Position numbers and translations under genes: made by a program. Shown here piece after piece: positions 1 through 13,182 of a DNA stretch of 64,000 nucleotides. This DNA is from Pseudoclavibacter endophyticus (lineage in GTDB: Bacteria; Actinomycetota; Actinomycetes; Actinomycetales; Microbacteriaceae), in contig NZ_WBJY01000004.1 in the NCBI RefSeq assembly GCF_008831085.1, positions 124,001 through 188,000 on the forward strand. Direction: 5' to 3'. Below the pieces are notes generated by a model. The model worked only from the letters and a program-made list of their open reading frames with translations, did no database searches and was not told the origin of the DNA. The number at the start of each line of letters is the position of its first letter. The stretch's first letter is position 1.

Positions 1-477
1 TGGACCCGTCGAGACCAGGTCGAGGTCCGGGCCGTCGTCGCCGCCACGACGGCGCTCCTCGCGGCGCTCATCTGGACGATCCTCGCCCTGCTCCAGCCCG
101 ATCCTCAACCGGCCATCCAGGCCGTGACCGGCGCGCCGATCACCACCCGGGAACCACAGTTCTCGCCGCTCGGCGCGCTGCTCGTCGCCGTGATCGCGTG
201 CTCCGGAGTCTTCGTGCCGGCCCTCATCGTCGCCCTCTCGCGCATCCACTGGCTCGCCGTGTGGATCGGCGGCGCGGTGCTGCTCGTCTGGGCCGTCACG
301 CTCGTGAGCTCGTACGGCATCCTCGTCCATCCGATGGAGGGTCTCGACCCCGACGCCGCCGCGTCTCGCAACACCGAAGCGACCGTGAGCGCCGCGATTG
401 CGCTGGTCGGGGCGGCTGTCGTCGTCGTGGCGTCGTCGATCGGCACCCTTCGCGCTCCCATCAAGCGATTCGGGTGA
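1..477 (+). CDS. Multi-pass membrane protein, C-terminal part (cut by left edge)
   Basis: The reading frame is already open at base 1 and stops at TGA 475-477, so only the last 158 residues are visible. A GTG at 124 could be read as a start, but coding sequence of the same character runs in frame upstream of it. Four hydrophobic segments are visible, at about residues 11-33, 55-80, 83-107 and 124-147, and the protein ends in a short basic tail (RAPIKRFG). It has no recognisable catalytic motif, so I can only call it a polytopic membrane protein of unknown function. It lies on the same strand as the heme operon but is separated from it by about 240 bases holding an iron box, so it is probably a separate unit. 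Confidence 0.7.
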   Translation, partial: WTRRDQVEVRAVVAATTALLAALIWTILALLQPDPQPAIQAVTGAPITTREPQFSPLGALLVAVIACSGVFVPALIVALSRIHWLAVWIGGAVLLVWAVTLVSSYGILVHPMEGLDPDAAASRNTEATVSAAIALVGAAVVVVASSIGTLRAPIKRFG

Positions 478-578
478 GGCGGCGGGGGACTCATTGCACG
501 GGGCGTAGCGGCTGCATGGCGGTCGCTCCGCCCCGTCTGCGTCAGGAAGCAGGTGTTGGGGATTGGCGAAGCTGAGGG

Positions 579-607
579 TTTGCAGTAAGGTAAGCCTGCC
601 CTAACTT
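579..607 (+). promoter_or_regulatory. Promoter overlapped by a DtxR/IdeR-type iron box
   Basis: The 19-mer TAAGGTAAGCCTGCCCTAA at 586-604 matches 17 of 19 positions of the remembered DtxR/IdeR consensus TWAGGTWAGSCTWACCTWA. It lies between a weak -35 (TTTGCA, 579-584) and a -10-like TAACTT (602-607) spaced 17 bases apart, so a bound repressor would block RNA polymerase. A second, poorer half-palindrome (TTAGTACTGCCTTAC, 606-620) overlaps on the right. The heme operon start at 714 follows. Iron-dependent repression of heme uptake is expected from the family; binding here is inferred. Confidence 0.8.
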
Positions 608-713
608 AGTACTGCCTTACTTCTCCCGGTGGTCGTGAGGGAGGGCATCCGTGCGCGGCACGGACACGGCGCATGCCGCCGCGCCCCGGCCGCGCGATGC
701 GACAGGAGAACTC

Positions 714-2171
714 ATGACAACAGTGCAGGACGGGGCGGCGTCGCGGCCGCCGAGATCGGGGTCGCGCCTTGCGATCCTGAGCGGCGCCGGTCTCGCGATC
801 GGCGCGCTTGCGGCAGGGCTCGCGCTCGGCTTGAGCGCGGCGCCGGCGAACGCGGCCGAGCAGACGGTGAGCAACGTCGACTTCTCATGGCGAGTCAACG
901 ACGAGTCGGGTGGCGGCGCGTACTTCGGCGGCTGCAACTTCCTCGTCGCGGGTGCGGCCGGCGATGCGGGCAGTTCGCGGCTGTGGACCGAGCCCGACGG
1001 CTTCTACAAGACCAGTGAGGGCAACGTCACCATCACGAAGCCCGACAGCGCGGGCAACCAGGTCGAGCCGACGTGGTCGACCAAGTGCCAGAACGCAGGG
1101 GGGACCGCGGTGGGGACGGGCGCCGGCTCGACCACGGGCAACCAGGTGAACCTCTCGTCCGGTACGGGCACGGTCGACGTGGACACGAACTCGGCGCGGC
1201 TCTCGTGGGACGGTTCGTTCACCTTCGTCTTCTACGGCGGCATGACGTACTGGACGGTGAACGACCCGGTGCTGACGATCGCTGACGGCGTTGGTTCGCT
1301 GACGGCGACGGCGTCCGGTTACGGCGCTGACATGAACGACACGTCGAAGTGGGTCACGCTGCCCGAGACCGCGATCGAGCTCGCGACCTTCTCGGGCGCC
1401 GAGGTCTCGGCGACGGGCTTGACCGTGCAGCCCGACTATCTCGGGGTCGAGGTCGACACGGACGGCGGCATGAGCCCGCAGTCGAGGAGCGGCGAGACCT
1501 GGGGGGCATTCCCGCAGTCCTTCGTCGACTTCAACATCCTCACGGGGCAGTCGTCGTACTGGTACTCGTCTGGCGGCGCAGCCGATCCCAAGAAGCCGGC
1601 GGTGCCGTTCACCGTGGCCTACGAGGTCGAGACGACGACGCCGCCGCCCGCCGCGGGCGAGGGCGACATCGGCGTGACGATCCCTGACGCCGAAGACCCG
1701 ACCGATCCGGGCGAGCCCGGTGACCCCACGGGGGAGTTCGGCTGGACATGGGCGGAGGCTGACGGCGTGGACCTCGGCACGGCGAAACAGGTCGACGACA
1801 CGTTCGTCGCGTCCGGCAGTCTCACGAACGTGGTCGTCAACGACACCCGTGCGGGTGGCACCGCACCGTACTCGTGGTCGCTCTCCGGCCAGGCGGGCGA
1901 CTTCACGGCGAGCGGCGGAAGCTCCTTCTCGTCGTCGTACCTCGGCTGGACGCCGAAGATCATCGACGCAGCCGCGCCCGCCGTCACGGCCGGAGCGGCC
2001 GTGACGGCGGGCGCAGGCGACGCCGACGGCCTCGCGACGGCGAAGACGCTCGGGAGCTCATCGGCCGCGGCGAGCGCGACGCTCGGTGCAGACCTCAGCC
2101 TCGCCGTCCCCGTCGACAAGGCTCCGGCGGGCGACTACCGCACGACGTTGACGGTCACGGCCATCAGCTGA
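714..2171 (+). CDS. htaA: Secreted HtaA heme-binding protein with C-terminal WxL-like domain
   Basis: This protein of 485 aa probably captures heme at the cell surface. ATG 714 is chosen because AGGAG lies at 704-708; an in-frame GTG at 651 has no such site. Residues 1-46 form a signal peptide (basic start, long hydrophobic core, cleavage near ANA/AE). Residues 55-300 are an HtaA domain (FSWRVN start, YGGMTYW, SGYGADMND, FVDFN) with Tyr70 in GAYFGGCNF as the likely heme ligand. Cys74 and Cys125 are the only cysteines of the domain and may form a disulfide. The domain has no histidine. An acidic/Pro linker is followed, at about 340-485, by a module with VVVNDTRAG, W388-S-L, YLGWTP and a GDYRTTLTVTA ending, which resembles a WxL cell-wall-binding domain lacking the second WxL motif. 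There is no membrane anchor. The next gene encodes a WxIP-like protein, a logical partner. Confidence 0.82.
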   Translation: MTTVQDGAASRPPRSGSRLAILSGAGLAIGALAAGLALGLSAAPANAAEQTVSNVDFSWRVNDESGGGAYFGGCNFLVAGAAGDAGSSRLWTEPDGFYKTSEGNVTITKPDSAGNQVEPTWSTKCQNAGGTAVGTGAGSTTGNQVNLSSGTGTVDVDTNSARLSWDGSFTFVFYGGMTYWTVNDPVLTIADGVGSLTATASGYGADMNDTSKWVTLPETAIELATFSGAEVSATGLTVQPDYLGVEVDTDGGMSPQSRSGETWGAFPQSFVDFNILTGQSSYWYSSGGAADPKKPAVPFTVAYEVETTTPPPAAGEGDIGVTIPDAEDPTDPGEPGDPTGEFGWTWAEADGVDLGTAKQVDDTFVASGSLTNVVVNDTRAGGTAPYSWSLSGQAGDFTASGGSSFSSSYLGWTPKIIDAAAPAVTAGAAVTAGAGDADGLATAKTLGSSSAAASATLGADLSLAVPVDKAPAGDYRTTLTVTAIS

Positions 2172-2190
2172 GACTCGAGCGACCTGGCGC

Positions 2191-2231
2191 GTTCCCCGGG
2201 GGAAGCCTTCGACGGCCGCTCCCCGGGGAAC
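2191..2231. terminator. Strong inverted repeat inside the heme operon
   Basis: The 11-base arms GTTCCCCGGGG (2191-2201) and CCCCGGGGAAC (2221-2231) are perfect inverted repeats around a 19-base loop, in the 169-base gap between the first and second genes. No T-run follows. It may be an attenuator, a processing site or an mRNA-stabilising hairpin that lets the secreted HtaA protein be made in excess of the downstream membrane proteins. The structure is visible; the role is inference. Confidence 0.55.
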
Positions 2232-2340
2232 CGGCGCACGGACGCATCGCCGGTCCGGTCCCGGCCGCCAGACCCCGGTGACCGTACGCCGCGTCCGCAT
2301 CGGCAACCACTCCACGCACGACACACGCATTCGAGGGACC

Positions 2341-3786
2341 ATGCCTCACGCCATCCGCACGACGCTGCGCCACGCGGCGGCGACCGTCATCGCGTCGCTG
2401 ATCGCGCTCGCGGCGCTCGTCATGCACCCGCTCGCCGCCGACGCCGCGACAGACGAGCCGCCCGCCTGGACGGTCGCAACCGTCGACAACGATCACGGCT
2501 CCGGCCGCGCGAACTTCGCGCACGACGTCGACCCCGGCCAGACGATCACCGACACCATGCGCGTGACGAACACCGGCGGGAGCGACCTGCCACTGACGGT
2601 GTACGCGGCCGACGCCTTCACGACCGATACCGGTTCGATCGACATATTGCCGCTCGAAGAAGCGTCGATCGACGCCGGCACCTGGATCACGGTCGACGCG
2701 CCCGACCTCACGCTGCGGCCGGGCGAGTCGGCCGACGTGACGTTCACGGTCGCGGTGCCGGACAACGCCACGCCCGGCGACCACGCCGCGGCCATCGTCG
2801 CCTCGCTGCTCCCAGGTGACGCCGGCGGCCAGGTGCAGGTGGAGCGCCGCCTCGGCCTGCGCGTCGATCTGCGCGTCAGCGGCGAGATCGCCCCGGTCGC
2901 AGAGATCTCCTCGCTGACGACGGGCTACGCAGCCGGCTGGAATCCCTTCGGCGGCGGCACCGTGACCGTCACTTACGTGCTCACGAATACGGGAAACGTG
3001 CGGCTCGCGACACTGGAAGACCTGCGTATCGCCGGCATCGGCGGCATCGCCCCGATCGCGCTGCAGGGCATGGAGGTGCCCGAGCTGCTGCCGGGCTCGT
3101 CGGTGTCGGTCACGCGCGAGGTGCCGACGAGCGTCGTCGGCCCCGTCGACGGCACGCTCACGCTCTACCTGCAGCCGGTCGGCGCCTTCACCGATGCGCC
3201 CGTCGCCGTCACGACCGAGCTCTCGGCGTTCGGGGTGCCGTGGACCCTCGTGGCGCTCATCGTCGTCGTGCTGATCGCTCTCGCGGCCGTCGCGTTCTGG
3301 TGGTGGCGCCGTCGCCGGCTCGATCTGCTCGCCGCGACGTACGTCGACGGCGGGTTCGGCCTCGACGACGAGCCGGGCGAGGGCCAGGATGCTCGTGGCC
3401 GCGAGGGCCGCGCCGGCGCGCTCGCCGCCGGCGGTGCGACCGCTGTCCTCCTCGCGGCGGCGCTCACCGTCGGCTTCAGCGCGGCCGCGGGCGAGGCCGT
3501 CGCTGCGCCCATCGGGGTGCTCGCCGCACAGGCCGAGGATCCCGAATCGACCATCGGCGTTGAGATCCCGAGCGCGACCCCGGCCATGCCCGGCACCCAG
3601 GTGCCGTCCGGGGCACCGGCGCCGGGGACGACCTCCGGCACGGGCACGGGCTCCGGCACGGGCACCGGTAGCGGCCTGACCCCAACCGGGATCGCCGGCT
3701 TCACCGAGGTCGTCGCCATCGGCGCGGGCGCGCTCGTGCTCGGCACCGCGGCGACCCTGCTCGCACTCCGCAGGCGTGGGGCCTAG
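2341..3786 (+). CDS. WxL-interacting-protein-like (DUF916-type) membrane protein with LTPTG-type C-terminus
   Basis: This is a 481-aa surface protein. ATG 2341 has GAGGGA at 2333-2338; an in-frame GTG/ACC region upstream is less likely. A signal peptide covers residues 1-36. Residues 40-290 form two beta-sandwich modules typical of WxL-interacting proteins: the first carries DPGQTITDTMRVTNTGGSDL, then a YAADAF motif and a GDHAAAIVAS strand. A transmembrane helix (301-325, ending WWWRRRR) follows. After it the protein continues with a second signal-like hydrophobic stretch (about 359-385), a Gly/Thr/Ser-rich linker, LTPTG (446-450), 25 hydrophobic residues and a terminal RRRGA. That tail looks like a small sortase substrate fused to the WxIP part. 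In Firmicutes such proteins hold WxL proteins on peptidoglycan; here the partner would be the HtaA-WxL protein. Family call by motif only. Confidence 0.68.
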   Translation: MPHAIRTTLRHAAATVIASLIALAALVMHPLAADAATDEPPAWTVATVDNDHGSGRANFAHDVDPGQTITDTMRVTNTGGSDLPLTVYAADAFTTDTGSIDILPLEEASIDAGTWITVDAPDLTLRPGESADVTFTVAVPDNATPGDHAAAIVASLLPGDAGGQVQVERRLGLRVDLRVSGEIAPVAEISSLTTGYAAGWNPFGGGTVTVTYVLTNTGNVRLATLEDLRIAGIGGIAPIALQGMEVPELLPGSSVSVTREVPTSVVGPVDGTLTLYLQPVGAFTDAPVAVTTELSAFGVPWTLVALIVVVLIALAAVAFWWWRRRRLDLLAATYVDGGFGLDDEPGEGQDARGREGRAGALAAGGATAVLLAAALTVGFSAAAGEAVAAPIGVLAAQAEDPESTIGVEIPSATPAMPGTQVPSGAPAPGTTSGTGTGSGTGTGSGLTPTGIAGFTEVVAIGAGALVLGTAATLLALRRRGA

Positions 3787-3791
3787 CCGGA

Positions 3792-5048
3792 ATGGCGCTT
3801 CCCCGTCTCCTTCGCCGCTTCAAGCGGCAGACCCTGCGCCGCTCCGCGTGGGGGCTCGTGATCGTGCTCGCCGTCGGCCTGCTGTGGGTCAACGGCATTC
3901 ACAACGTCGGCGCTTCCCCCGGCGCCTCGGCGGGCGGCTGCGTCCAGCCTCCCGCCCAGACCGTGCCCGCACCGCCCGCCCTTCCCGGAGTGACGAGCGC
4001 CGACCTGCCAGACCCCAGGACGATCACCGGGCCGACGACCGCGTACACGTCGACCGCCGCGATTCCGCCCGTCACCGACGCGCCGGAGGCGCTGCAGCGG
4101 CTGCCAGCGACCATCGAGAGCTCCGACGGCGCCATGACGACCGTGGCCGACACCTCCCGGATCTTGGCCGTGAACCAGAACGGCGGGCTCGCCGCCGCCG
4201 TCATCGGCCTCGGCTTCGGCTGCAACCTCGTCGGCCGCGACACGGCGACCGACGTGGAGCAGCTCATGCCCGGCAATGAGCAGTTGCCGCTCGTGACGCA
4301 GAACGGTCATGAGCTGAGCGCCGAGTCGATCCTCGACCTGGCGCCGACCGTCGTCATCACTGACTCCTCGGTAGGCCCGTACGACGTCCAACTGCAACTG
4401 CGCGAGGCGGGCATCCCGGTCGTGATGGTTCCCATCGTCTACGAAGAGGGCGTGCAGGGCGTCGGCGCCCAGATCCAGCTCGTCGCCGATGCGCTCGGCG
4501 TCCCCGAGGCCGGCGAGGCGCTCGTGAACCGCACGAACGAGGAGATCGGCGTCACGATCCAGGGGCTCGGCGCCATGGCGCCGTCCGACCCGGAGCAGAA
4601 GCCCCGCACCGTCTTCCTGTACCTGCGCGGCAGCATCTATTACTGGTTCGGCGCGGGCTCCGGCGCCGACTCGATCATCCAGAGCATCGGCGCGCGCGAC
4701 GTCGCGACCGAGGTCGGGTTCGAGGGCATGGCGCCGACCAACGCCGAGGCCCTCGTCGAGGCCGCGCCCGACGTCATCATCGTCATGACCCTCGGTCTCG
4801 CCTCCGTCGGCGGCATCGACGAGGCGCTCGAGCTGCCCGGCATCAAGCAGACGCCGGCAGGCGCGAACCGGCGCATCGTCGACATGAGCGACTACGAGGT
4901 CATGAGCTTCGGCCCGCGCACCGCCTCGGTGCTCGCGGCGCTCGGTGTTGCCATCTACGCGCCGGAGTACGCGTACGCGCCGGACGACGCCGGCGGGGCC
5001 GAGGCATCCGGCGCGCCCGCTCGCGGCGGGAGAGGAACGAACGCGTGA
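3792..5048 (+). CDS. hmuT: Heme ABC transporter substrate-binding protein HmuT
   Basis: The 418-aa product is the extracytoplasmic heme receptor that hands heme to the HmuUV permease. The N-terminus is basic (RLLRRFKRQTLRR) and followed by one hydrophobic segment (21-36). The ASAGGC at 45-50 is a weak lipobox set unusually far from that segment, so anchoring could be by uncleaved helix or by lipid. The mature part is a class III periplasmic-binding fold (GLAAAVIGLGFGCNLVGRD, SAESILDLAPTVVI). His173 (NGHELS) and the Y277-L-R279 motif correspond by position to the conserved His and Tyr-x-Arg heme ligands I recall from corynebacterial HmuT. The gene starts 6 bases after its upstream neighbour and overlaps hmuU by 4 bases (GTGA), indicating translational coupling. 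Confidence 0.9.
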   Translation: MALPRLLRRFKRQTLRRSAWGLVIVLAVGLLWVNGIHNVGASPGASAGGCVQPPAQTVPAPPALPGVTSADLPDPRTITGPTTAYTSTAAIPPVTDAPEALQRLPATIESSDGAMTTVADTSRILAVNQNGGLAAAVIGLGFGCNLVGRDTATDVEQLMPGNEQLPLVTQNGHELSAESILDLAPTVVITDSSVGPYDVQLQLREAGIPVVMVPIVYEEGVQGVGAQIQLVADALGVPEAGEALVNRTNEEIGVTIQGLGAMAPSDPEQKPRTVFLYLRGSIYYWFGAGSGADSIIQSIGARDVATEVGFEGMAPTNAEALVEAAPDVIIVMTLGLASVGGIDEALELPGIKQTPAGANRRIVDMSDYEVMSFGPRTASVLAALGVAIYAPEYAYAPDDAGGAEASGAPARGGRGTNA

Positions 5049-6286
5049 CGACGCTGCACGACCGCGCGAACCCCTCGCCCGCGGGCGATGACGCCCCCGC
5101 CGAGCCGCGGGCGCAGACCGGCGCGCCGCCCAGTGCGCTGCCGACCGCGCACGGTGCTCCAGTGTCCACGGACACGCGACGCGATCGGGGGCACGGGGCA
5201 CTGCGGCGCGCCGACCCGCTCGAACGCCCGAAGCCGACACCGCCGCGCACGAAGCGGGGCCGCGCGGCGCTGCTCGCGATCGTGCTCGGGGCACTGCTCG
5301 TCGCCGGCTGCCTCGTGTCGGCGATGATCGGCCAGCTCTACATCCCGCCGAACGAGGTGCTCGGCTTCGTATTGCACTCGGTCGGCATCGACTGGATCGC
5401 GGGCCCGAGCCACGAGTTCGGATCGGCGGCGCTCACCGAGGTGCGGTTCCCGCGCATCGTGCTCACGCTGCTCGTCGGGGCGGCTCTCGCCGTCGCCGGC
5501 ACCCTGATGCAGGGCATCTTCGGCAACCCGCTCGCGGAGCCCGGCTCCGTCGGCGTCTCGTCGGGCGCCGCGGTCGGCGCGAGTTTTTCCATCCTGTTCA
5601 GCCTCACGTTCCTCGGCCCGTTCACGACACCGGCGTTCGCGTTCGTCGCGGGCCTCATCACGACGTTCGTGGTGTACGCGCTCTCGCGGCAGGGCAGGCG
5701 AACCGAGGTCATCACGCTCATCCTCACGGGCGTCGCCGTCAACGCCGTGTGCGGCGCGCTCATCGCGTTCATCACGTTCCGAGCACCGACGCAGGCGCGA
5801 GAGCAGATCGTGTTCTGGCAGATGGGCAGCCTCAACGGCAGCCGGTGGGAGCAGGTCGCGCTCGTCGCACCGCTCGTCGTCGTCGGCTGCCTCCTGGCGA
5901 TCGGAATGGGGCGTCAGCTCGACCTGCTGAGCCTCGGCGAGAAGGCCGCGCGGCACGTCGGCGTCAACGTCGAACGCGTGCGCGTCCTCGTCATGATCTA
6001 CGTCGCGCTGCTCGTTTCGGCGGCGGTCGCGTTCGCCGGCATCATCGCCTTCGTCGGGCTCGTCGTGCCGCACATCATCCGCATGATCATCGGGCCGGCT
6101 CACCGGGCGCTCCTGATCTGTTCGGTGCTCGGCGGGGCGCTGTTGCTCACGGTCGCCGATCTCGCGGCGCGCACCCTCGTCGAGTACGCCGACCTGCCGA
6201 TCGGCATGCTCACGTCGATGATCGGCGGACCGTTCTTCTTCTACCTCATCCGCCGCAGCCGATCGAAGGGGGGTGGCTGGCAGTGA
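5045..6286 (+). CDS. hmuU: Heme ABC transporter permease HmuU (FecCD family)
   Basis: The 413-aa inner-membrane permease moves heme from HmuT to the cytoplasm. It starts with GTG overlapping the hmuT stop. The first 75 residues are hydrophilic, Pro/Arg-rich and absent from typical FecCD permeases (about 330-350 aa); the rest has about ten membrane helices. Family landmarks are visible: PRIVLTLLVGAALAVAGTLMQG, NPLAEPGSVGVSSGAAVGA and the ATPase-coupling region GEKAARHVGVNVERVR, then FVGLVVPHIIRMIIGPAH. It overlaps hmuV by 4 bases (GTGA). The N-terminal extension could begin at a later start, but no better ribosome site was found. Confidence 0.92.
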   Translation: MTTLHDRANPSPAGDDAPAEPRAQTGAPPSALPTAHGAPVSTDTRRDRGHGALRRADPLERPKPTPPRTKRGRAALLAIVLGALLVAGCLVSAMIGQLYIPPNEVLGFVLHSVGIDWIAGPSHEFGSAALTEVRFPRIVLTLLVGAALAVAGTLMQGIFGNPLAEPGSVGVSSGAAVGASFSILFSLTFLGPFTTPAFAFVAGLITTFVVYALSRQGRRTEVITLILTGVAVNAVCGALIAFITFRAPTQAREQIVFWQMGSLNGSRWEQVALVAPLVVVGCLLAIGMGRQLDLLSLGEKAARHVGVNVERVRVLVMIYVALLVSAAVAFAGIIAFVGLVVPHIIRMIIGPAHRALLICSVLGGALLLTVADLAARTLVEYADLPIGMLTSMIGGPFFFYLIRRSRSKGGGWQ

Positions 6287-7149
6287 GCTCGATCCTCATG
6301 GGCGCTGCCCGCCGCCCGCGGCCAGTGGAGCACGGCGCCGTCGTGCTGACGGTGCGCGGCGCGACCGTCGAGTTCGGCGAGCGCCGGGTCCTCGACGGCG
6401 TCGACCTCGACATTCGCGCGGGCGAGGTACTCGCGCTCGTCGGGCCCAACGGCGCAGGCAAGTCGACGTTGATCAATGTGATCACCGCCGACGTCGACAT
6501 CGTGCGCGGCAGCGTCGAGCTCGACGGCCTGGCGAGCTACGCCTGGACGAACACCGAGCTCGCGATGCGCAGGGCCGTGCTGCTGCAGCACGTCGACATC
6601 GCCTTCCCGTTCACCGTGGAAGAGGTCGTCGACATGGGCCGTGCCCCCTGGCGGGGCACGAGTGACAGCGATCGCGACGAGCTCATCGCGCGCGGCGCGA
6701 TGCGGCGGACCGACATCGAGCGGTTCGCCGACCGCCACTACCCGTCCCTCTCCGGCGGTGAGCGCGCTCGGGCGGCGCTCGCGCGCGTGCTCGCGCAGAC
6801 CTCGTCGGTCATGCTGCTCGACGAACCGACGGCCGCGATGGACATCAAGCACCAGGAGCTGGTGCTGTCACTGACGCGCGACTACGCGGCGACCGGCTGC
6901 GCGGTCGTCATCATCGTGCACAACCTCGATCTTGCGGCGGCGTACGCCGACCGCATTGCGCTGCTCTCCGACGGCCGGATCGTGGCCGACGGCGCGCCCA
7001 CGGAGGTGCTCACGAGCGAGCGCATCGGTGAGGTCTACGACCATCCCGTGCAGATCCTCGAAGACCCGATCACGGGCGCGCCCATCGTCGTGCCCGAGCG
7101 ACGCGCCCGCCTGACGGCGGACGCAACGCGTGGAAGGAACGCCCCATGA
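6283..7149 (+). CDS. hmuV: Heme ABC transporter ATP-binding protein HmuV
   Basis: This 288-aa ATPase powers HmuTU. GTG 6283 overlaps the hmuU stop and has a purine-rich AAGGGGGG just upstream; an ATG at 6298 is an alternative. Walker A is GPNGAGKS (residues 54-61), the Q-loop is in LLQHVDIAFPF, the signature is LSGGERARAALARVLAQ, Walker B is VMLLDEPTAAMD and the switch His is in IIVHNLD. The D-x-x-x-x-H spacing and the VEEVVDMGRAPW segment are typical of heme/siderophore FecE-type ATPases. The next gene overlaps by 4 bases (ATGA), so all genes from hmuT to 11413 form one coupled block. Confidence 0.93.
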   Translation: MSSILMGAARRPRPVEHGAVVLTVRGATVEFGERRVLDGVDLDIRAGEVLALVGPNGAGKSTLINVITADVDIVRGSVELDGLASYAWTNTELAMRRAVLLQHVDIAFPFTVEEVVDMGRAPWRGTSDSDRDELIARGAMRRTDIERFADRHYPSLSGGERARAALARVLAQTSSVMLLDEPTAAMDIKHQELVLSLTRDYAATGCAVVIIVHNLDLAAAYADRIALLSDGRIVADGAPTEVLTSERIGEVYDHPVQILEDPITGAPIVVPERRARLTADATRGRNAP

Positions 7150-8588
7150 CCTCCTTGAGCATCGGCGCGCGGAGCATCGGCCGCACCCTCGTCGTAGCAG
7201 CCATCGCGGCGCTCGCCGCCGTGTGGGCGCTCGTCGGCGTCGGGGCCGCCCCCGCTCACGCGGCCGGGCAGGTCACGGTGTCCGGCACGCTGACTGCTGA
7301 CACCGAGAGCACGATCCAGGTGTCCGGCTCCGGCTTCCAGTCGGTGCAGGGAGGATTCGGCGGAATTTACGTGCTCTTCGGCTGGGTGGATGATCCGGCC
7401 GGTGGCTCGTGGACGCCGAGTGCCGGCGGCGTCACCGGCGAGGACTACCGCTACGTGTACGACGACGAGAGCAACCCCGTCGGCTACCAGCTCTTCGTCA
7501 CCTTCCCCGGCAGCTCGACCGCCTATGCCGCAAACGGCGGCGAGGTGGCCGCGGACGGCACCTGGTCCGGCACCATGCGCGTCCCGAGTGCCGTCTTCCA
7601 AACCTTCGACCGCGACCTGAACGAGACGACGGTCAACTGCCTCGAGGTGCAGTGCGGCGTCATCACGATCGGCGCGCACGGCGTCAAGAACGCGAACAAC
7701 GAGTCGTTCACGCCAGTGAGCTTCCCCGCCCCCGCGGCCGGCACCGGGACGGCGGGCGACGCCGGTGCGACGGCCGGGGAGACGAACGACGAGGCGGCCC
7801 CGGAACAGTCGGAGGAGGTGGCGGCGGCCCCCGTCGCGACGTCGGCACCGATCACGACCGTGACGACGCCAGCGGCGCAGCCGCTGCCCGACTGGCTCCT
7901 CGTGCTGCTGCCCGTGCTCATCGTGGCAGGCCTCGCCATCGTCGCGCTCGCGGTGGGCGTGGGCGCCTACCTCGCGGCGAAGAGCCTGCTGCTCGGCGTC
8001 AACCCGGCGGCGCTCGAAAAGGTGCGCGGCCAGCGCGAGCGCAGGGCCATCCGCGAGCGCGAGAAACAGCGACGCAAGACCGCGACGCTTCGGCGAGCCC
8101 AAGAGCTGCGCAGCGCGAGGGCGAGGCAGCGCGTCGACGGCGCCGTCGCGCGGCAGCAGCTGGAGCGCGATCCCGTGGTGGTGGCGGACAGCGCGGATCG
8201 CATGAACGACTTCTTCGCCGCCGAAGTTCCGCCGTCGACGCCGACGTCCGGTGATGTGCCGCCGACCTCGTGGTTCGAGACGGTCGCTGCGAATGCGGGC
8301 GGCCAGGGCGGCTCGAGTCCGGCCGGTCCGGATTCGATCGGCGCGGAGGCGGAGTCAGGCGCGGGTGCGGCCGGGGGTGCCGGCACGGCACCCGGAGACG
8401 ATGATCCGGCGGCGACCAGGCAGGGCGAGACCTCGCCGACGTATCTCGCTGCGGTGGCCGACGACGCCGATGGCACCCGGACGGGCGGAGCCGACGGCGA
8501 TGCACCGACGCTCGTGCTCGCCGCAGCCCGGGCGTCGACCTCGGCACCGAACGAGGCGGCGACGCGCGGGACGGAGGAGGAGCGATGA
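7146..8588 (+). CDS. Unassigned surface protein with Ig-like ectodomain and basic cytoplasmic helix
   Basis: The 480-aa product was not recognised. It has a signal peptide (1-38, AHAAG cleavage), then a beta-rich ectodomain (40-200) opening with VTVSGTLTADTESTIQVSGS, containing GGFGGIYVLFGWVDDP and a lone Cys pair in NCLEVQCGVITIGAHGVKN. After a low-complexity Ala/Glu/Thr linker comes one membrane helix (about 259-285). The juxtamembrane LLLGVNPAALEKVRGQRER leads into a strongly basic, probably helical segment to about residue 340, and the last 140 residues are Ala/Gly/Asp-rich and disordered. Its place between hmuV and the double-HtaA gene, with 4-base overlaps on both sides, implies a role in heme capture or transfer, or in organising the surface complex. 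It is unusual in coupling a secreted domain to a long cytoplasmic tail. Confidence 0.6.
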   Translation: MTSLSIGARSIGRTLVVAAIAALAAVWALVGVGAAPAHAAGQVTVSGTLTADTESTIQVSGSGFQSVQGGFGGIYVLFGWVDDPAGGSWTPSAGGVTGEDYRYVYDDESNPVGYQLFVTFPGSSTAYAANGGEVAADGTWSGTMRVPSAVFQTFDRDLNETTVNCLEVQCGVITIGAHGVKNANNESFTPVSFPAPAAGTGTAGDAGATAGETNDEAAPEQSEEVAAAPVATSAPITTVTTPAAQPLPDWLLVLLPVLIVAGLAIVALAVGVGAYLAAKSLLLGVNPAALEKVRGQRERRAIREREKQRRKTATLRRAQELRSARARQRVDGAVARQQLERDPVVVADSADRMNDFFAAEVPPSTPTSGDVPPTSWFETVAANAGGQGGSSPAGPDSIGAEAESGAGAAGGAGTAPGDDDPAATRQGETSPTYLAAVADDADGTRTGGADGDAPTLVLAAARASTSAPNEAATRGTEEER

Positions 8589-11413
8589 CCGGCCGGCTGG
8601 CGGTCTTCCGCCGCGGCGAGGGCTGCAGCCCGACGGCCACGGCGCGACGGCGAGGCCGCAGCGGACCCGGCAGGAACCGACCGGGAATCATCGCGCGGCT
8701 CCTCGCGGGCCTCGGCATCGCGAGCCTCATGACCGGCGGCGGCTGGTTCGCGATCGAGGCCGCGAGTGCGGCGGAGTCGGTGGTCAGCGACGTGGGCTTC
8801 TCGTGGCGGGTGAACGAGGAGTCCGGAGGCGGCGCGTACTTCGGCGGCTGCAACTTCCTCGCCGCAGGGACGGCGGGCGACGCCGGCAGCTCGCGGCTGT
8901 GGGCCGAGACCGACGGCTTGTACTCGACCAGCGATGGGAATGTGACGATCACGAAGCCCGACAGCGCCGGCAACCAGGTCGAGCCGACGTGGTCGACGAA
9001 GTGCCTGGACTCAGCCGGCGGTCCGGTGACCACGCAGCCGGGGTCGTCGTCGGGCAATCAGGTGAACTTGGCTGGCGGCTCCGGGAGGCTCGATGTCGAC
9101 GCCGATACCGGCAGCATCTCGTGGAAGGGGTCGTTCACGATCGTCTACTACGGCGGTATGACGTACTGGACGATCAGCGATCCGGTGCTGTCCGTCGAGA
9201 ACGGTGTCGGCACGCTCACGGGTATTGCGTCGGGGTACGGGGCGGACATGAACGATCCCTCGAAGTGGGTGGAGCTGGAGCCGACCGAGATCGAGCTCGC
9301 GACGTTCTCCGGTGTCGATCTCACGGCGACCGGCGTGACCATCGATCCCGACTACGCGGGAATCGCGATCGACAGTGACCCAGGCGGCCCCTCCGGTCCG
9401 CAGAACCGGGAGAAGGAGGGCTGGGGCTCGTTCCCGCAGTCCTTCATCGACTTCAACGTGCAGACCGGCCAGGCCGCGTACTGGTACACCTCCGGTGGCG
9501 CCGCCGACCCGAAGAAGCCCGGCGCACCGATCGCCATCGACTACGCCGTCGCCGACGGTCCCGCGGCATCCGTCGATCACGGCCGGGTGCCCGAGGGCTT
9601 CGACGGGGGCGTCGCGGTGTCGTTCTCGGGCCTCGGGGATGCGCCCGGCCGCGTGGAACTGCGTTCCCGCGCGGACGGCTCAGTGCTGCAGCTACTCGAC
9701 AAAGCGGTCGTGGACGGCGGAACGGCGAGTGGGCGTTGGGACGTCTCGACCCTCGCCCGAGGCCCGCACGAGTTCGACGCCGTGCTCGTCGACGGCAGTG
9801 GCGAGACCGTCATCGAGCTCGCCTCGCCGGTGACGATCGTGGTCGTCGCCCCGCTCGCCGACGCAGCGCCGGAGCTGGACGCGCCCCTCGTGACGGCCAG
9901 GTCGATCGCGGCGAGTTGGGGGTGGCCGGCAGGCTCGGCCGCGGGGCCGCCGAGCTCCTACGTCGTCCAGGCCTTCGCGGGGCCTGCGGCGACGGGAACA
10001 CCGGTCGCCGAGCGCACGGTCCCCGCTGACCCGGCCGCCTCAGGGGGAACGACGACGCTCACCGGGCTGGCGCCATCGACCCAGTACACGGTCGCGGTGA
10101 CCCCGCAGCTCGCGGGGGAGAACGGATCGGCAGCGACGCGCACGGTGACGACCAAGGCGGCCGGTGACAACGCCGGCGGGAACGACGGCGACGGGAACGA
10201 CGGCGGCGGGAACGGCGGTGACGGCGGTGTCGAGGGGAACGACCCGGGCGGCGATGATACGGCGGGCGCCACGTTCTACTGGGGCCTGAATCAGGAGTCG
10301 AACGCCGGCGCCTTCTTCGGCGGCTGCAACTTCCTCGTGGCCGGGCGGGCGGGCGACAAGGGCGCGGCGACGCCCTGGACGGATGGCGACGGCATGTACG
10401 CCTCGGCCGCGGGCAACGTGACGATCATCAAGCCCGTCGGGCAGAGCTTCGAGCAGGCGAGCTGGTCGACGAAGTGCACCGATCGGACCGGGGCGCCCGT
10501 CTCGGTGCAGCGCCAGGGCTCGTACACCGAGTCGCAGGTGCGCATCACGGGCGGCGAGGTCGCGACCGAGGCGGACGGTTCGGTCCAGGTCCAGTGGCGC
10601 GGCTCGTTCACGGTCGCCTTCTACGGCGGCATGACCTACTGGTCGGCGACCGACCCGCTGCTCGTGGTGGACGCGAACGGGAACGGGAAGGTGACGGCGA
10701 CCGCATCCGGCTACGGAGCATCCATGCACGACGCCTCGAAGTGGGTTGCGCTCGAGGAGCGCACGATCACGCTCGCCAATCTCACCGGGTTGACGGCCGA
10801 TGCTGTCGAGCGCGATGGCGGGTTCACCATGACGCCCGACTACTTGGGCGTCGCGTACACGGGCACCAACGAGGGGCAGGGGGTGCCCGGCTCCGGCATG
10901 GAGTCCGCGACCGAGCAGGCGGCGCGGAACGCGGCCAATGGTTCGTACTGGGGGTCGTTCCCGGCCGACTTCGTCGACTTCCAGGGCGAGACGGGCCAGT
11001 TCTCGTACTGGTTCACGTCGAACGGCCAGCGCGACCCGTACAAGCCGACGACGCCCATGACGGTGAGCCTCGACGGCGCGGGCGGCCCCGTCGCCGGCAA
11101 CTACAACGCGGCACCGGCGCCCAACCTGAACCAGCAGGTGCCGGGAGGCGGCGGAGCGGGAGCCGGAGGCAACGGGGGCGGGGGAGCGGGTGCGGACGCC
11201 CTGGCCGACGCTGGTCCCGCGGACGGCGCGCAGTCGCAACCCGCGCAGGCCGGGCCGGCGCCGCTGACGGTCGCGAGTGGCGACCGAGGGCCCATCAGCC
11301 CGGCGCTGCTCGTCGGCAGTGGTCTCGGGCTCACCGCGACCGGGCTGGCGAGCTGGGCAGTCGGTCTGCTGATCCGAAGACGCCTCGGCCTTGATCCCGC
11401 GGCGTTCTCGTAG
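8585..11413 (+). CDS. htaA: Large membrane-anchored protein with two HtaA domains and an Fn3 domain
   Basis: This 942-aa protein is a probable surface heme receptor. Its order is: basic N-terminus and signal/anchor (about 34-64), HtaA domain 1 (70-320), Ig-like domain (325-420), fibronectin type III-like domain (about 427-523), Gly/Asn/Asp-rich linker, HtaA domain 2 (562-840), Gly-rich linker and a C-terminal membrane helix (about 904-930) followed by RRRLGLDPAAFS. Domain 1 is close to that of the 714-2171 protein (shared blocks such as GNVTITKPDSAGNQVEPTWS), so the two arose by duplication. Domain 1 has Tyr85 in GAYFGGCNF; domain 2 has Phe577 at the same place (GAFFGGCNF). Each domain has a Cys pair (89/140 and 581/631). 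The ATG overlaps the previous stop. The gene ends the operon. Confidence 0.87.
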   Translation: MTGRLAVFRRGEGCSPTATARRRGRSGPGRNRPGIIARLLAGLGIASLMTGGGWFAIEAASAAESVVSDVGFSWRVNEESGGGAYFGGCNFLAAGTAGDAGSSRLWAETDGLYSTSDGNVTITKPDSAGNQVEPTWSTKCLDSAGGPVTTQPGSSSGNQVNLAGGSGRLDVDADTGSISWKGSFTIVYYGGMTYWTISDPVLSVENGVGTLTGIASGYGADMNDPSKWVELEPTEIELATFSGVDLTATGVTIDPDYAGIAIDSDPGGPSGPQNREKEGWGSFPQSFIDFNVQTGQAAYWYTSGGAADPKKPGAPIAIDYAVADGPAASVDHGRVPEGFDGGVAVSFSGLGDAPGRVELRSRADGSVLQLLDKAVVDGGTASGRWDVSTLARGPHEFDAVLVDGSGETVIELASPVTIVVVAPLADAAPELDAPLVTARSIAASWGWPAGSAAGPPSSYVVQAFAGPAATGTPVAERTVPADPAASGGTTTLTGLAPSTQYTVAVTPQLAGENGSAATRTVTTKAAGDNAGGNDGDGNDGGGNGGDGGVEGNDPGGDDTAGATFYWGLNQESNAGAFFGGCNFLVAGRAGDKGAATPWTDGDGMYASAAGNVTIIKPVGQSFEQASWSTKCTDRTGAPVSVQRQGSYTESQVRITGGEVATEADGSVQVQWRGSFTVAFYGGMTYWSATDPLLVVDANGNGKVTATASGYGASMHDASKWVALEERTITLANLTGLTADAVERDGGFTMTPDYLGVAYTGTNEGQGVPGSGMESATEQAARNAANGSYWGSFPADFVDFQGETGQFSYWFTSNGQRDPYKPTTPMTVSLDGAGGPVAGNYNAAPAPNLNQQVPGGGGAGAGGNGGGGAGADALADAGPADGAQSQPAQAGPAPLTVASGDRGPISPALLVGSGLGLTATGLASWAVGLLIRRRLGLDPAAFS

Positions 11414-11420
11414 CAGCGGG

Positions 11421-11487
11421 CCCGCCGAAGCCCGGTGCGAGGCCCGAAGCTGTCCGAGATCCCGAAGCTTCGGGTGGGGCCGGCGGG
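11421..11487. terminator. Nested inverted repeats between convergent genes, probable bidirectional terminator
   Basis: The 79-base gap between the double-HtaA gene and the heme oxygenase gene is almost entirely inverted repeat. The perfect 14-mer palindrome CCCGAAGCTTCGGG (11461-11474) can also pair its right half with CCCGAAGCT at 11443-11451, and an outer CCCGCCG (11421-11427) matches CGGCGGG (11481-11487). The position after two converging stops suggests a two-way terminator. No long T-run is present, as is common in GC-rich actinobacteria. Confidence 0.6.
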
Positions 11488-11492
11488 TGACG

Positions 11493-12152
11493 CTAGGCGA
11501 ATGTGCGCTCGAGGGCCGTGAAGATGCGCTCGTTGTGGGCGAAGCTCTCGTTGGCCTCGTCGAGCAGCCGGGAGATGGCGGCCTCGTCGAACGGCAGCTC
11601 GTCGAGCCGTGTGCGGTAGGCGCGCTTGAACGGCACGAGCTCGTCGATCGCGTCGAAGGCGAAGAACCTCGCCTCGTCGTCGGGCAACCCGTAGGCGCGG
11701 TCGATCATGACGCGCATGGCCTGACCGCCCGACAGATCGCCGAGATAGCGCGTGTAGTGGTGCGCGAGGAGGCGGGCGGGATCGCCGGCGGCGTCGTGGA
11801 TACGGTCGGCGTAGGACCGAGTTTCGGGCAGCACGCCCGGCAGTGGTGTCGAGACGCGCGGGGCGAGAGCGGCGAGGTCGGACTCGATCGAAGGCACGCG
11901 GTCGAGCTCCTCGACGACGAGACCGGGCAGGTCGCGGCGCTCGCGCAGCCGTCGGGTCGCGGCCTCGAGCGCCTCGTACACCGCGCCGTACTGCTGCAGC
12001 AGCGCCGCCCACGCGTCGATGCTGAGGTTGCCGCCGAGCAGGCGTTCGAGGAAGGCGGCGCGCTCAGCGCTCTCGTGCGCCTGAGCAGTTCGCTCGCGCA
12101 GGCGCTGGCTGATCGGCAGCGCGTCGGTCGCGGTGGAGGCGGTCGTCGTCAT
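11493..12152 (-). CDS. hmuO: Heme oxygenase
   Basis: The 219-aa cytoplasmic enzyme opens the heme ring with O2 and electrons to give biliverdin, CO and Fe2+. The start ATG (12152) has GCAGGAGT 6 bases upstream; longer in-frame starts lack this. His26 in TAQAHESAE is the proximal heme ligand, and the distal helix motif YLGDLSGGQ is at about 136-144. The length is normal for the bacterial HmuO family (about 215 aa). It converges on the heme uptake operon and has its own iron-box-like site about 50 bases upstream, so uptake and degradation would be induced together under iron starvation although transcribed separately. Confidence 0.94.
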   Translation of the reverse strand: MTTTASTATDALPISQRLRERTAQAHESAERAAFLERLLGGNLSIDAWAALLQQYGAVYEALEAATRRLRERRDLPGLVVEELDRVPSIESDLAALAPRVSTPLPGVLPETRSYADRIHDAAGDPARLLAHHYTRYLGDLSGGQAMRVMIDRAYGLPDDEARFFAFDAIDELVPFKRAYRTRLDELPFDEAAISRLLDEANESFAHNERIFTALERTFA

Positions 12153-12203
12153 CGGTACTCCTGCGGGCTCATGGCGCGGCGTTGCGCGCACGGCAAGGCT
12201 ACC

Positions 12204-12217
12204 TTAGGTACACCTAA
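12204..12217 (-). promoter_or_regulatory. DtxR/IdeR-like operator upstream of heme oxygenase
   Basis: TTAGGTACACCTAA is a perfect 14-base palindrome with both DtxR half-sites (TTAGGT/ACCTAA). It lacks the exact centre of the 19-base consensus (about 14 of 19 matches). It sits 52 bases before the heme oxygenase ATG in the only gap between that gene and the upstream ssuC stop. Iron control is inferred from sequence and gene function. Confidence 0.65.
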
Positions 12218-12252
12218 CTTGCGGAGTCGATTCGAGCCGGATCTCGTTGGCG

Positions 12253-13182
12253 CTACGTCCAGCGAGCGAGCACCCGCTTCTGCGCGATGCCGAACAGGCC
12301 ATCACACAGCTTGCCGATGACCGCGAGCAGCACGACCGCAAGCAGCATCCGGTCGGTTCGGCCGTTGTTCTGCGAGTCGACGAGCAGGAACCCGAGCCCG
12401 CTTGAGGAAGCCAAGAGCTCGGCGGCCACGAGGAACAACCACGACTGGGCCAGAGCGAGGCGGAGTCCGGCGACGATTGACGGGAGCGCGGCAGGCACCT
12501 GCACCTGCAGGAGCAGCTCGAGTCGCGTGAGACCGAAGGCACGACCGGCTTCGACCAGCAACGGGTCAACGTGACGGAGCGCCGCCGCGACCGTCGTATA
12601 GACGGGGAAGAACGCGCCGATTGCGACGAGTGTCACCTTCGAGTCTTCGCCGATACCGATCCAGAGCGCCAGCAGCGGCACCCACGCGAGCCCCGTGACG
12701 GCGCGGAAGGCGCCGACCGTTGGGGCGAACAGTGCGTCCGTGAGACGCGAGAGGCCGACGGCCGCGCCGACCGCGAGACCGAGCAGCGAACCGATGACGT
12801 AGCCGAGCAGCACCCGTTGCGTCGAGATCCCGACGTGGCCGAGCAACTGTCCGCGCTCGATCAAGTCGACCGCAGCCGTGACCACGTCGGCTGGCGGCGG
12901 CAACTGGACGGACGTGAAGATGCCGACCGACGTGCTCCACTGCCAGAGCGCGAGCAGCAGCAGCGGCACGATCGCCCCGAGCAGCCAATACGCGCCGGCG
13001 CGGCGACGAGTGCGACCGCCGGCGTCGCCGGTTCCCCGGATGACCCGCGCGCTGCGGTCTCGCGTGCGCCCAGGGTGACCGGGCAGCCCTCGGCGGCGTG
13101 CCGAGCCGGCGTCCGTGCCAATGGGCCCGGTCGAGCGCGAGTCGGGGTTGGCGCGTTCGTCGAGCTGTTCGCCTGTGGTCAT
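12253..13182 (-). CDS. ssuC: ABC transporter permease, sulfonate/nitrate/taurine type (SsuC-like)
   Basis: The 309-aa inner-membrane permease belongs to an organosulfonate-type importer. The first 60 residues are hydrophilic and Arg-rich; six membrane segments follow (AIVPLLLLALWQW, VLLGYVIGSLLGLAVGAAVG and others). The ATPase-contact loop EAGRAFGLTRLELLLQVQVP and the family sequence LPPPADVV near the N-terminus are typical of SsuC/TauC. It lies last in the order ssuB-ssuA-ssuC on the minus strand. The substrate could be any sulfonate, sulfur-containing amino acid derivative or related anion, since this subfamily is broad. Confidence 0.83.
   Translation of the reverse strand: MTTGEQLDERANPDSRSTGPIGTDAGSARRRGLPGHPGRTRDRSARVIRGTGDAGGRTRRRAGAYWLLGAIVPLLLLALWQWSTSVGIFTSVQLPPPADVVTAAVDLIERGQLLGHVGISTQRVLLGYVIGSLLGLAVGAAVGLSRLTDALFAPTVGAFRAVTGLAWVPLLALWIGIGEDSKVTLVAIGAFFPVYTTVAAALRHVDPLLVEAGRAFGLTRLELLLQVQVPAALPSIVAGLRLALAQSWLFLVAAELLASSSGLGFLLVDSQNNGRTDRMLLAVVLLAVIGKLCDGLFGIAQKRVLARWT

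Follow-up and report, generated by a model that had tools for sequence, protein, structure and literature searches.

The window analysed here is the whole 64,000-nucleotide stretch of Pseudoclavibacter endophyticus contig NZ_WBJY01000004.1 (124,001-188,000), with positions counted from its first letter. Close to its start lie two adjacent genes, P1 and P2, upstream of a heme-uptake (hmu) cluster; an earlier note on this DNA had read them as a heme-domain protein fused to a WxL-like module and a WxL-interacting protein (WxLIP) that together tether a heme binder to the wall. All genes and protein features of the window given below are on the forward (+) strand, except for the heme oxygenase gene.

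P1 (714..2171) starts at an ATG at 714 preceded by AGGAG and encodes 485 aa. It comprises a signal peptide, read from the sequence, an HtaA/CR-like domain of a divergent GGCNF subtype (861..1625, residues 50-304), a linker with the strand motif DIGVTIP (1665..1685, residues 318-324) and a C-terminal WxL-homologous module (1731..2168, residues 340-485). The strand motif has a predicted local distance difference test score (pLDDT) below 50 in the AlphaFold2 (AF2) monomer. The stretches VVVNDTRAG, W388-S-L, YLGWTP and GDYRTTLTVTA pointed out in the earlier note are all present. P1 ends with the module, and in 166 of the 169 modules collected for the comparison below the end lies at most 6 residues from the stop.

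P2 (2341..3786, 481 aa, with the ATG at 2341 as the likely start) encodes a WxLIP-like protein fused to a CscD-like tail. Its first domain (2509..2796, residues 57-152 in numbering from this start) matches the WxLIP PGBD family (DUF916, PF06030) with 39.6 bits against a cutoff of 27.3 (E 6.3e-10), the sole match of this family in the genome at E ≤ 1. The second immunoglobulin (Ig)-like domain, which had also been taken for a DUF916 module, instead matches PF24346 (DUF7507; 32.8 bits, cutoff 27) and is followed by a membrane helix (3241..3348, residues 301-336) with basic residues after it, assigned by AF2/DSSP and by hydrophobicity of the sequence.

The C-terminal module and its probable WxLIP-like partner

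Searches with the C-terminal module of P1 recovered 80 relatives at E ≤ 1e-3, and eight residues (D377, R379, W388, G411, W412, P414, P466 and G473) are invariant across the 81 module sequences, a pattern well beyond coincidence. The relatives carry HtaA domains, purple acid phosphatases, esterases, Ig-like and PBP-like proteins as cargo. The Pfam WxL profile (PF13731) has no match to P1 at E ≤ 10 and none in its genome at E ≤ 1; across the phylum, three of 149 genomes have a match at E ≤ 1e-3, none of these being above the cutoff. Among the 81 sequences scanned (the relatives plus P1) it matches 27 at E ≤ 1, P1 not being one of them. Individual checks of nine relatives gave matches over the module in eight, one of which (P0082) is above the curated cutoff. 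A profile of 18 modules aligns with a profile built from four Bacillota WxL proteins over 134 columns (95.6% probability, E 1.3e-8). In this alignment DTR falls on D-x-RG and TLTVTA on TLTWTL, and the first WxL motifs coincide.

A first Trp-x-Leu motif preceded by Asp-x-Arg, given as a WxL criterion in PMC1534035, is present in P1 as D377-T-R379 and W388-S-L. The second Trp-x-Leu motif near the C-terminus was not found, as the earlier note had said: TLTVTAIS aligns with TLTWTLAN, and none of the 18 aligned modules has a Trp there. The invariant GW-P stretch is, in turn, a feature of this group of modules alone. The module is by profile homologous to WxL but, lacking the second motif and having a GW-P stretch of its own, it is not classed here as a WxL domain in the strict sense. 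PDB sequences were searched with P1, the module profile, the Bacillota WxL profile and one long WxL protein from Bacillota; no WxL chain came up. None of the fold matches listed for P1 is named WxL, which is no evidence of difference.

The predicted structure of P2 has the fold of the solved WxLIP (PDB 9i25) plus a C-terminal membrane helix, and the match spans both domains of that entry. HBD/DUF3324 is not among the 12 Pfam families listed for P2 at E ≤ 10, and the NQIDKxxxYFDLK motif of the Bacillota PGBD was not seen; the group reads GRxNFxYxxxPG at the aligned place, where P2 has GRANFAHDVDPG. Both assignments of the earlier note are therefore upheld, the WxL-like one by the matches of the relatives and the profile alignment rather than by a direct Pfam match of P1, and the WxLIP-like one by a PF06030 match above cutoff and by fold. 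The outcome of the profile searches does not refute the note, whose refuting case was that neither region would match the WxL/WxLIP folds.

Distribution, adjacency and cargo of the pair

In a survey of 297 genomes of the order (PF06030 at E ≤ 1e-5), the module was found in 69 and PF06030 in 54; 53 genomes have both, 16 the module only, one PF06030 only and 227 neither. At least 69 of the 89 PF06030 matches have a module within 2 kb, counting the module positions among the 150 matches listed, always upstream on the same strand and at gaps of 183-601 bp. A second set consisted of 156 stretches (155 chosen for a module or PF06030 match, plus the window) in which WxLIP genes were recognised by a profile built from relatives. 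There, a WxLIP follows within 1.2 kb downstream of 133 of 169 modules, so the side-by-side conservation that the earlier note asked for is borne out. Over the 133 pairs, sequence distances are correlated (0.77, against a permutation maximum of 0.10), demonstrating that the two genes are inherited as a unit. No open reading frame (ORF) or protein carrying both module and WxLIP was met among 276 module-bearing and 253 WxLIP-bearing sequences, counts in which overlapping loci recur. In the phylum sample, the module occurs in 19 of 296 genomes.

Joint inheritance by itself yields such a tree correlation, and the contact between P1 and P2 is deduced rather than seen, so the two could be mere operon neighbours with no physical link. 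We regard this as very improbable. A WxLIP follows most modules, as pooled over cargos, despite the many unrelated cargo families among 90 representative module proteins, and interaction of this class is real, since a WxLIP-WxL complex of Enterococcus faecium has been solved (9i25) and binding in vitro of two E. faecium WxL proteins to a transmembrane partner is described in a review (PMC5817068).

The 90 representatives, chosen among module proteins under 1200 aa, include HtaA (6), alkaline phosphatase (4) and glycoside hydrolase family GH26 (4) cargos, besides GH18, GH20, esterase, peptidase and GDPD types. The module/WxLIP pair is thus not special to heme and is found with many cargos. Among 48 named loci, 27 have an HtaA protein with the module, followed in 23 by a WxLIP; hmuT, hmuU or hmuV is in the stretch in 20 of these 23, and all three are in 19. 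The four loci counted as misses are L043 and three whose stretches end near the module (L060, L063, L069). In L043 (9782-11527, Pseudoclavibacter helvolus) the module frame runs on abnormally, and the stretch shows neither a WxLIP nor hmu neighbours. The pair was found in, among other genera, Gulosibacter, Pseudoclavibacter, Zimmermannella, Cellulomonas, Herbiconiux, Occultella, Luteimicrobium, Brachybacterium, Oerskovia, Cellulosimicrobium and metagenome-assembled genomes of Bifidobacteriaceae; Cellulomonas and Herbiconiux are usually environmental. In two further clusters (L092, L216), module proteins are accompanied by two divergent WxLIP-like genes.

None of the 21 HtaA loci lacking the module has a WxLIP within the stretches examined. 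In 13 of them an HtaA-matching ORF ends in an LxxTG-type sorting signal, and two (L086, L088) have a C-terminal helix, so one kind of capture protein is anchored differently according to genus.

These distributions also bear on the idea that the module binds peptidoglycan directly, P2 being an accessory stabiliser and P1 wall-bound without need of it. Non-covalent binding of WxL domains to peptidoglycan, also in trans, is on record (Brinster 2007, as cited in PMC5817068; PMC10599100; PMC9772566), and 36 of the 169 modules have no WxLIP directly downstream: in 15 it lies elsewhere in the stretch, six modules are at a stretch end, and 15 show none with no end nearby. However, the near absence of PF06030 from genomes without the module (1 of 297) and of WxLIP from module-free HtaA loci suggests that WxLIP serves the module, and the fold matches of the latter, pilin-like domains and domains attached to glycoside hydrolases, neither show nor exclude glycan binding. 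Direct wall binding independent of P2 is, on this evidence, unlikely.

Capture domain, proposed holding of P1 and the tail of P2

The N-terminal domain of P1 matches the HtaA/CR profile (PF04213) and has a CR-like fold, but the term heme domain used in the earlier note is not well supported: among its fold matches the hemoglobin receptor HbpA ranks first, and the Ser-x-x-x-Tyr motif with the axial heme tyrosine, conserved in the characterised CR domains described in PMC12494546, is not conserved in the P1 subtype, which reads ESGGGA(Y/F)FGGCNF with alternating Tyr and Phe. P1 might therefore be a receptor for hemoglobin or another hemoprotein, like HbpA, and leave heme itself to other HtaA-type proteins. 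By sequence profile, though, HtaA CR2 and HbpA are alike (E 0.0018 and 0.0022), other conserved tyrosines (Y174 in 34 and Y284 in 31 of 35 sequences) could be ligands, and the hosts need not meet hemoglobin; such a receptor role is quite possible, if on the doubtful side. A second, canonical HtaA domain (104 bits) occurs elsewhere in the genome, outside the window (G000:C4:257879-258322).

Our reading of the locus, to which we give a probability of roughly 0.7, is that P1 is a secreted CR-type capture protein for heme or a hemoprotein, held at the envelope by the WxLIP P2 via its WxL-homologous module, beside the hmu genes. The module would be an Ig-like, somewhat pilin-like domain, and P2 its membrane-anchored, two-Ig, chaperone-like partner, most likely holding it by supplying a beta-strand, as predicted for the Enterococcus WxLIP (PMC10599100). 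The pair would keep the capture protein at the cell envelope next to HmuT, from where captured heme could pass to HmuTUV and HmuO. As for the tethering to the wall proposed before, Enterococcus WxL domains are reported to bind peptidoglycan, but P2 is predicted to sit in the membrane and searches of its genome turned up no sortase, so holding at the membrane is the safer statement.

The earlier note passed over the last 150 residues of P2. Beyond the first membrane helix, they comprise a second hydrophobic helix resembling an internal signal peptide (3418..3486, residues 360-382), the beta-strand motif IGVEIP (3553..3570, residues 405-410), which is like the strand preceding the P1 module, a Gly/Ser/Thr/Pro linker, and a sorting-signal-like C-terminus (3676..3783) consisting of LTPTG (residues 446-450), the third helix and arginines. 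Cleavage at the second helix is presumed; Pseudoclavibacter relatives have an AVA-E stretch there, like a signal-peptide cleavage site. The same fusion is found in these relatives with LASTG, LAATG, LISTG or LLSTG, LARTG and similar motifs are also seen among relatives, and further WxLIP-tail fusions occur in L225, P0125 and P0146. In Gulosibacter (L041, 12822-13313) and Zimmermannella (L045, 12628-13059), in turn, the tail is a separate small neighbouring gene. The WxLIP proteins of L183 (3471-5027) and P0159 have the strand motif fused on and end in a hydrophobic helix, yet lack LxxTG, so a sorting signal is no necessary part of the tail. The tail is also optional, most WxLIP loci showing no such candidate in the stretch seen. 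Sortase-family genes lie within about 4 kb of WxL/WxLIP genes in three genomes (G349:C1:347415, G371:C17:159109, G198:C2:43300), so some clusters may have sortases of their own.

The 155 loci with a WxLIP ORF, in stretches often reaching just 3 kb to each side, yielded 23 candidate sorting signals close to WxLIP genes; seven (L084, L103, L116, L132, L167, L181, L219) were dropped by eye as unrelated or spurious before shuffling. An alternating strand after a hydrophobic stretch (e.g. DDVTVDVSIxP, DINVTIP) is present in 14 of the 16 actinobacterial candidates kept, against 1.24 expected from shuffling, a descriptive count as the selection was made after the sequences had been seen. The two without it are L232 and L239, the latter having lost the strand through trimming. 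Of 162 distinct stretches preceding a module, 81 contain the strict strand motif, where shuffling gives 4.9. Several small module proteins have such a strand directly after the presumed signal peptide.

The fused tail of P2, resembling the small sortase-anchored CscD, may act as a second holding strand. Weighing against this, the tail strand is not docked in the AF2 monomer of P2, a natural fusion of WxLIP and tail, where pLDDT is mostly below 50; with a sorting-type end seen in 13 of 67 rows by pattern and in P0084 and P0125 by eye, this is weak evidence. A bolder and rather doubtful extension, offered tentatively, would make WxL/WxLIP the Gram-positive counterpart of chaperone-subunit pairs: a pilin-like module lacking a strand, WxLIP as membrane-tethered chaperone, and CscD as a wall-linked donor strand that copies the pre-module strand and takes over the cargo by strand exchange, with chaperone and donor fused here and heme uptake as the cargo. 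The likeness of P1/P2 to chaperone-usher pili (CfaA-CfaB, CsuC-CsuA/B, FimC-FimA) is limited to the fold, in which other Ig-like proteins give similar scores; in contrast to those systems, the partner P2 is membrane-anchored, the cargo is a binding protein or enzyme, and no usher is expected. Strand complementation and exchange have reportedly been studied in TasA (PMC10151520, PMC9674648). In the literature search, among the matches listed, donor strand, CscD and chaperone-usher were not linked to WxL, and the chaperone comparison may be in print.

Like the Csc (cell-surface cluster)/WxL-WxLIP clusters of Bacillota, as presented in PMC1534035 (Siezen 2006), PMC9772566 and PMC10599100 (Hassan 2022 and 2023), the locus combines a C-terminal WxL-type domain on variable cargo (CscC) with a neighbouring gene for a DUF916 membrane protein (CscA/WxLIP), and it has a short LPxTG-type, CscD-like segment, which in this case is part of the WxLIP. 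It differs in the loss of the distal WxL motif and the group-specific invariant GWTP motif, in a CR-type heme or hemoprotein cargo within an hmu cluster, in a second WxLIP domain not recognised as DUF3324, in the fusion of the CscD-like part and in that no sortase was found in the genome. CscD proteins are described in PMC1534035 as very short LPxTG proteins whose peptides cannot be aligned and which were proposed to anchor others via unknown interactions; a sequence motif common to their strand and that preceding the WxL module would give them a testable role. In public databases, 'WxL protein peptidoglycan domain-containing' is already the name of many P2 relatives from actinobacteria, and 'WxL domain-containing' that of two module proteins; DUF916 proteins and metallophosphatases are reported as gene neighbours of Ang-2 (PMC12537917); the literature search found no paper on HtaA together with WxL.

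We conclude that the locus represents a genuine and conserved version of the csc/WxL-WxLIP system in actinobacteria, with heme-uptake cargo. The pairing is known chiefly from lactic acid bacteria and their relatives, and comparison with other genomes suggests that it is a general, exchangeable way of holding secreted proteins at the cell surface. WxL/WxLIP display would thereby extend from mainly Bacillota, with carbohydrate use and host attachment, to cargo-independent anchoring in Actinomycetota, heme uptake included. Within one operon type the module replaces the sorting signal or membrane helix of other genera, amounting to a natural swap experiment. The heme-locus pairs also call into question the suggestion, made in PMC10599100, of a WxLIP helix inserting into the membranes of the host, since here the helix is encoded beside an import system, in genera that are usually environmental, and is followed by basic residues.

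The hmu cluster and its putative regulation

Downstream of P2 lie genes for an HmuT-like heme ABC substrate-binding protein (3792..5048; PF01497, E 2.9e-28), an HmuU-like permease (5045..6286; PF01032, E 7.7e-95) and an ORF whose C-terminal part is an HmuV-like ATPase (5749..7149), found beside HmuT/U in relatives. The hmu setting described in the earlier note is thereby confirmed, and it recurs in most of the heme loci with the pair in relatives; the Hmu names are presumed from context. The next gene (7146-8588), with homologues in many hmu loci, encodes a secreted or membrane protein with a weak likeness, well short of the cutoff, to an enediyne chromoprotein family (NF040680; E 0.003). It is followed by P6 (8585..11413), the second protein here to have HtaA-like domains, which carries a hydrophobic helix at its C-terminus and is related to the HtaA region of P1 (phmmer E 1e-175) and having no PF04213 match of its own at E ≤ 10. 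On the opposite (-) strand, 11493..12191 encodes what we take, from sequence and context, to be an HmuO-like heme oxygenase, also with homologues in many hmu loci.

With Corynebacterium HtaA/HtaB/ChtA and HbpA the P1 locus shares the CR beta-sandwich fold, secretion, neighbouring hmuTUV genes and an iron-box-like site. Unlike P1, those proteins end in a C-terminal helix (a sorting signal in other genera) instead of a WxL-type module, and the heme-ligand motif is not conserved in P1.

The P1-P2-hmu unit looks iron-regulated. A DtxR/IdeR-like iron box, TAAGGTAAGCCTGCCCTAA, lies upstream of P1 at 586..604, with four mismatches to a 19-bp consensus; it is the best site in the window, the minima of 20 shuffled windows being 5-7 mismatches. 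A scan of 400-12400 for sigma-70 promoters found none. A weaker iron-box-like site precedes the heme oxygenase gene (12204-12222; six mismatches, within the range of the shuffled minima). Finally, the gap between P1 and P2 contains a perfect 11-bp inverted repeat (2191-2231; GTTCCCCGGGG / CCCCGGGGAAC) with a 19-base loop, possibly a site of RNA processing or attenuation.

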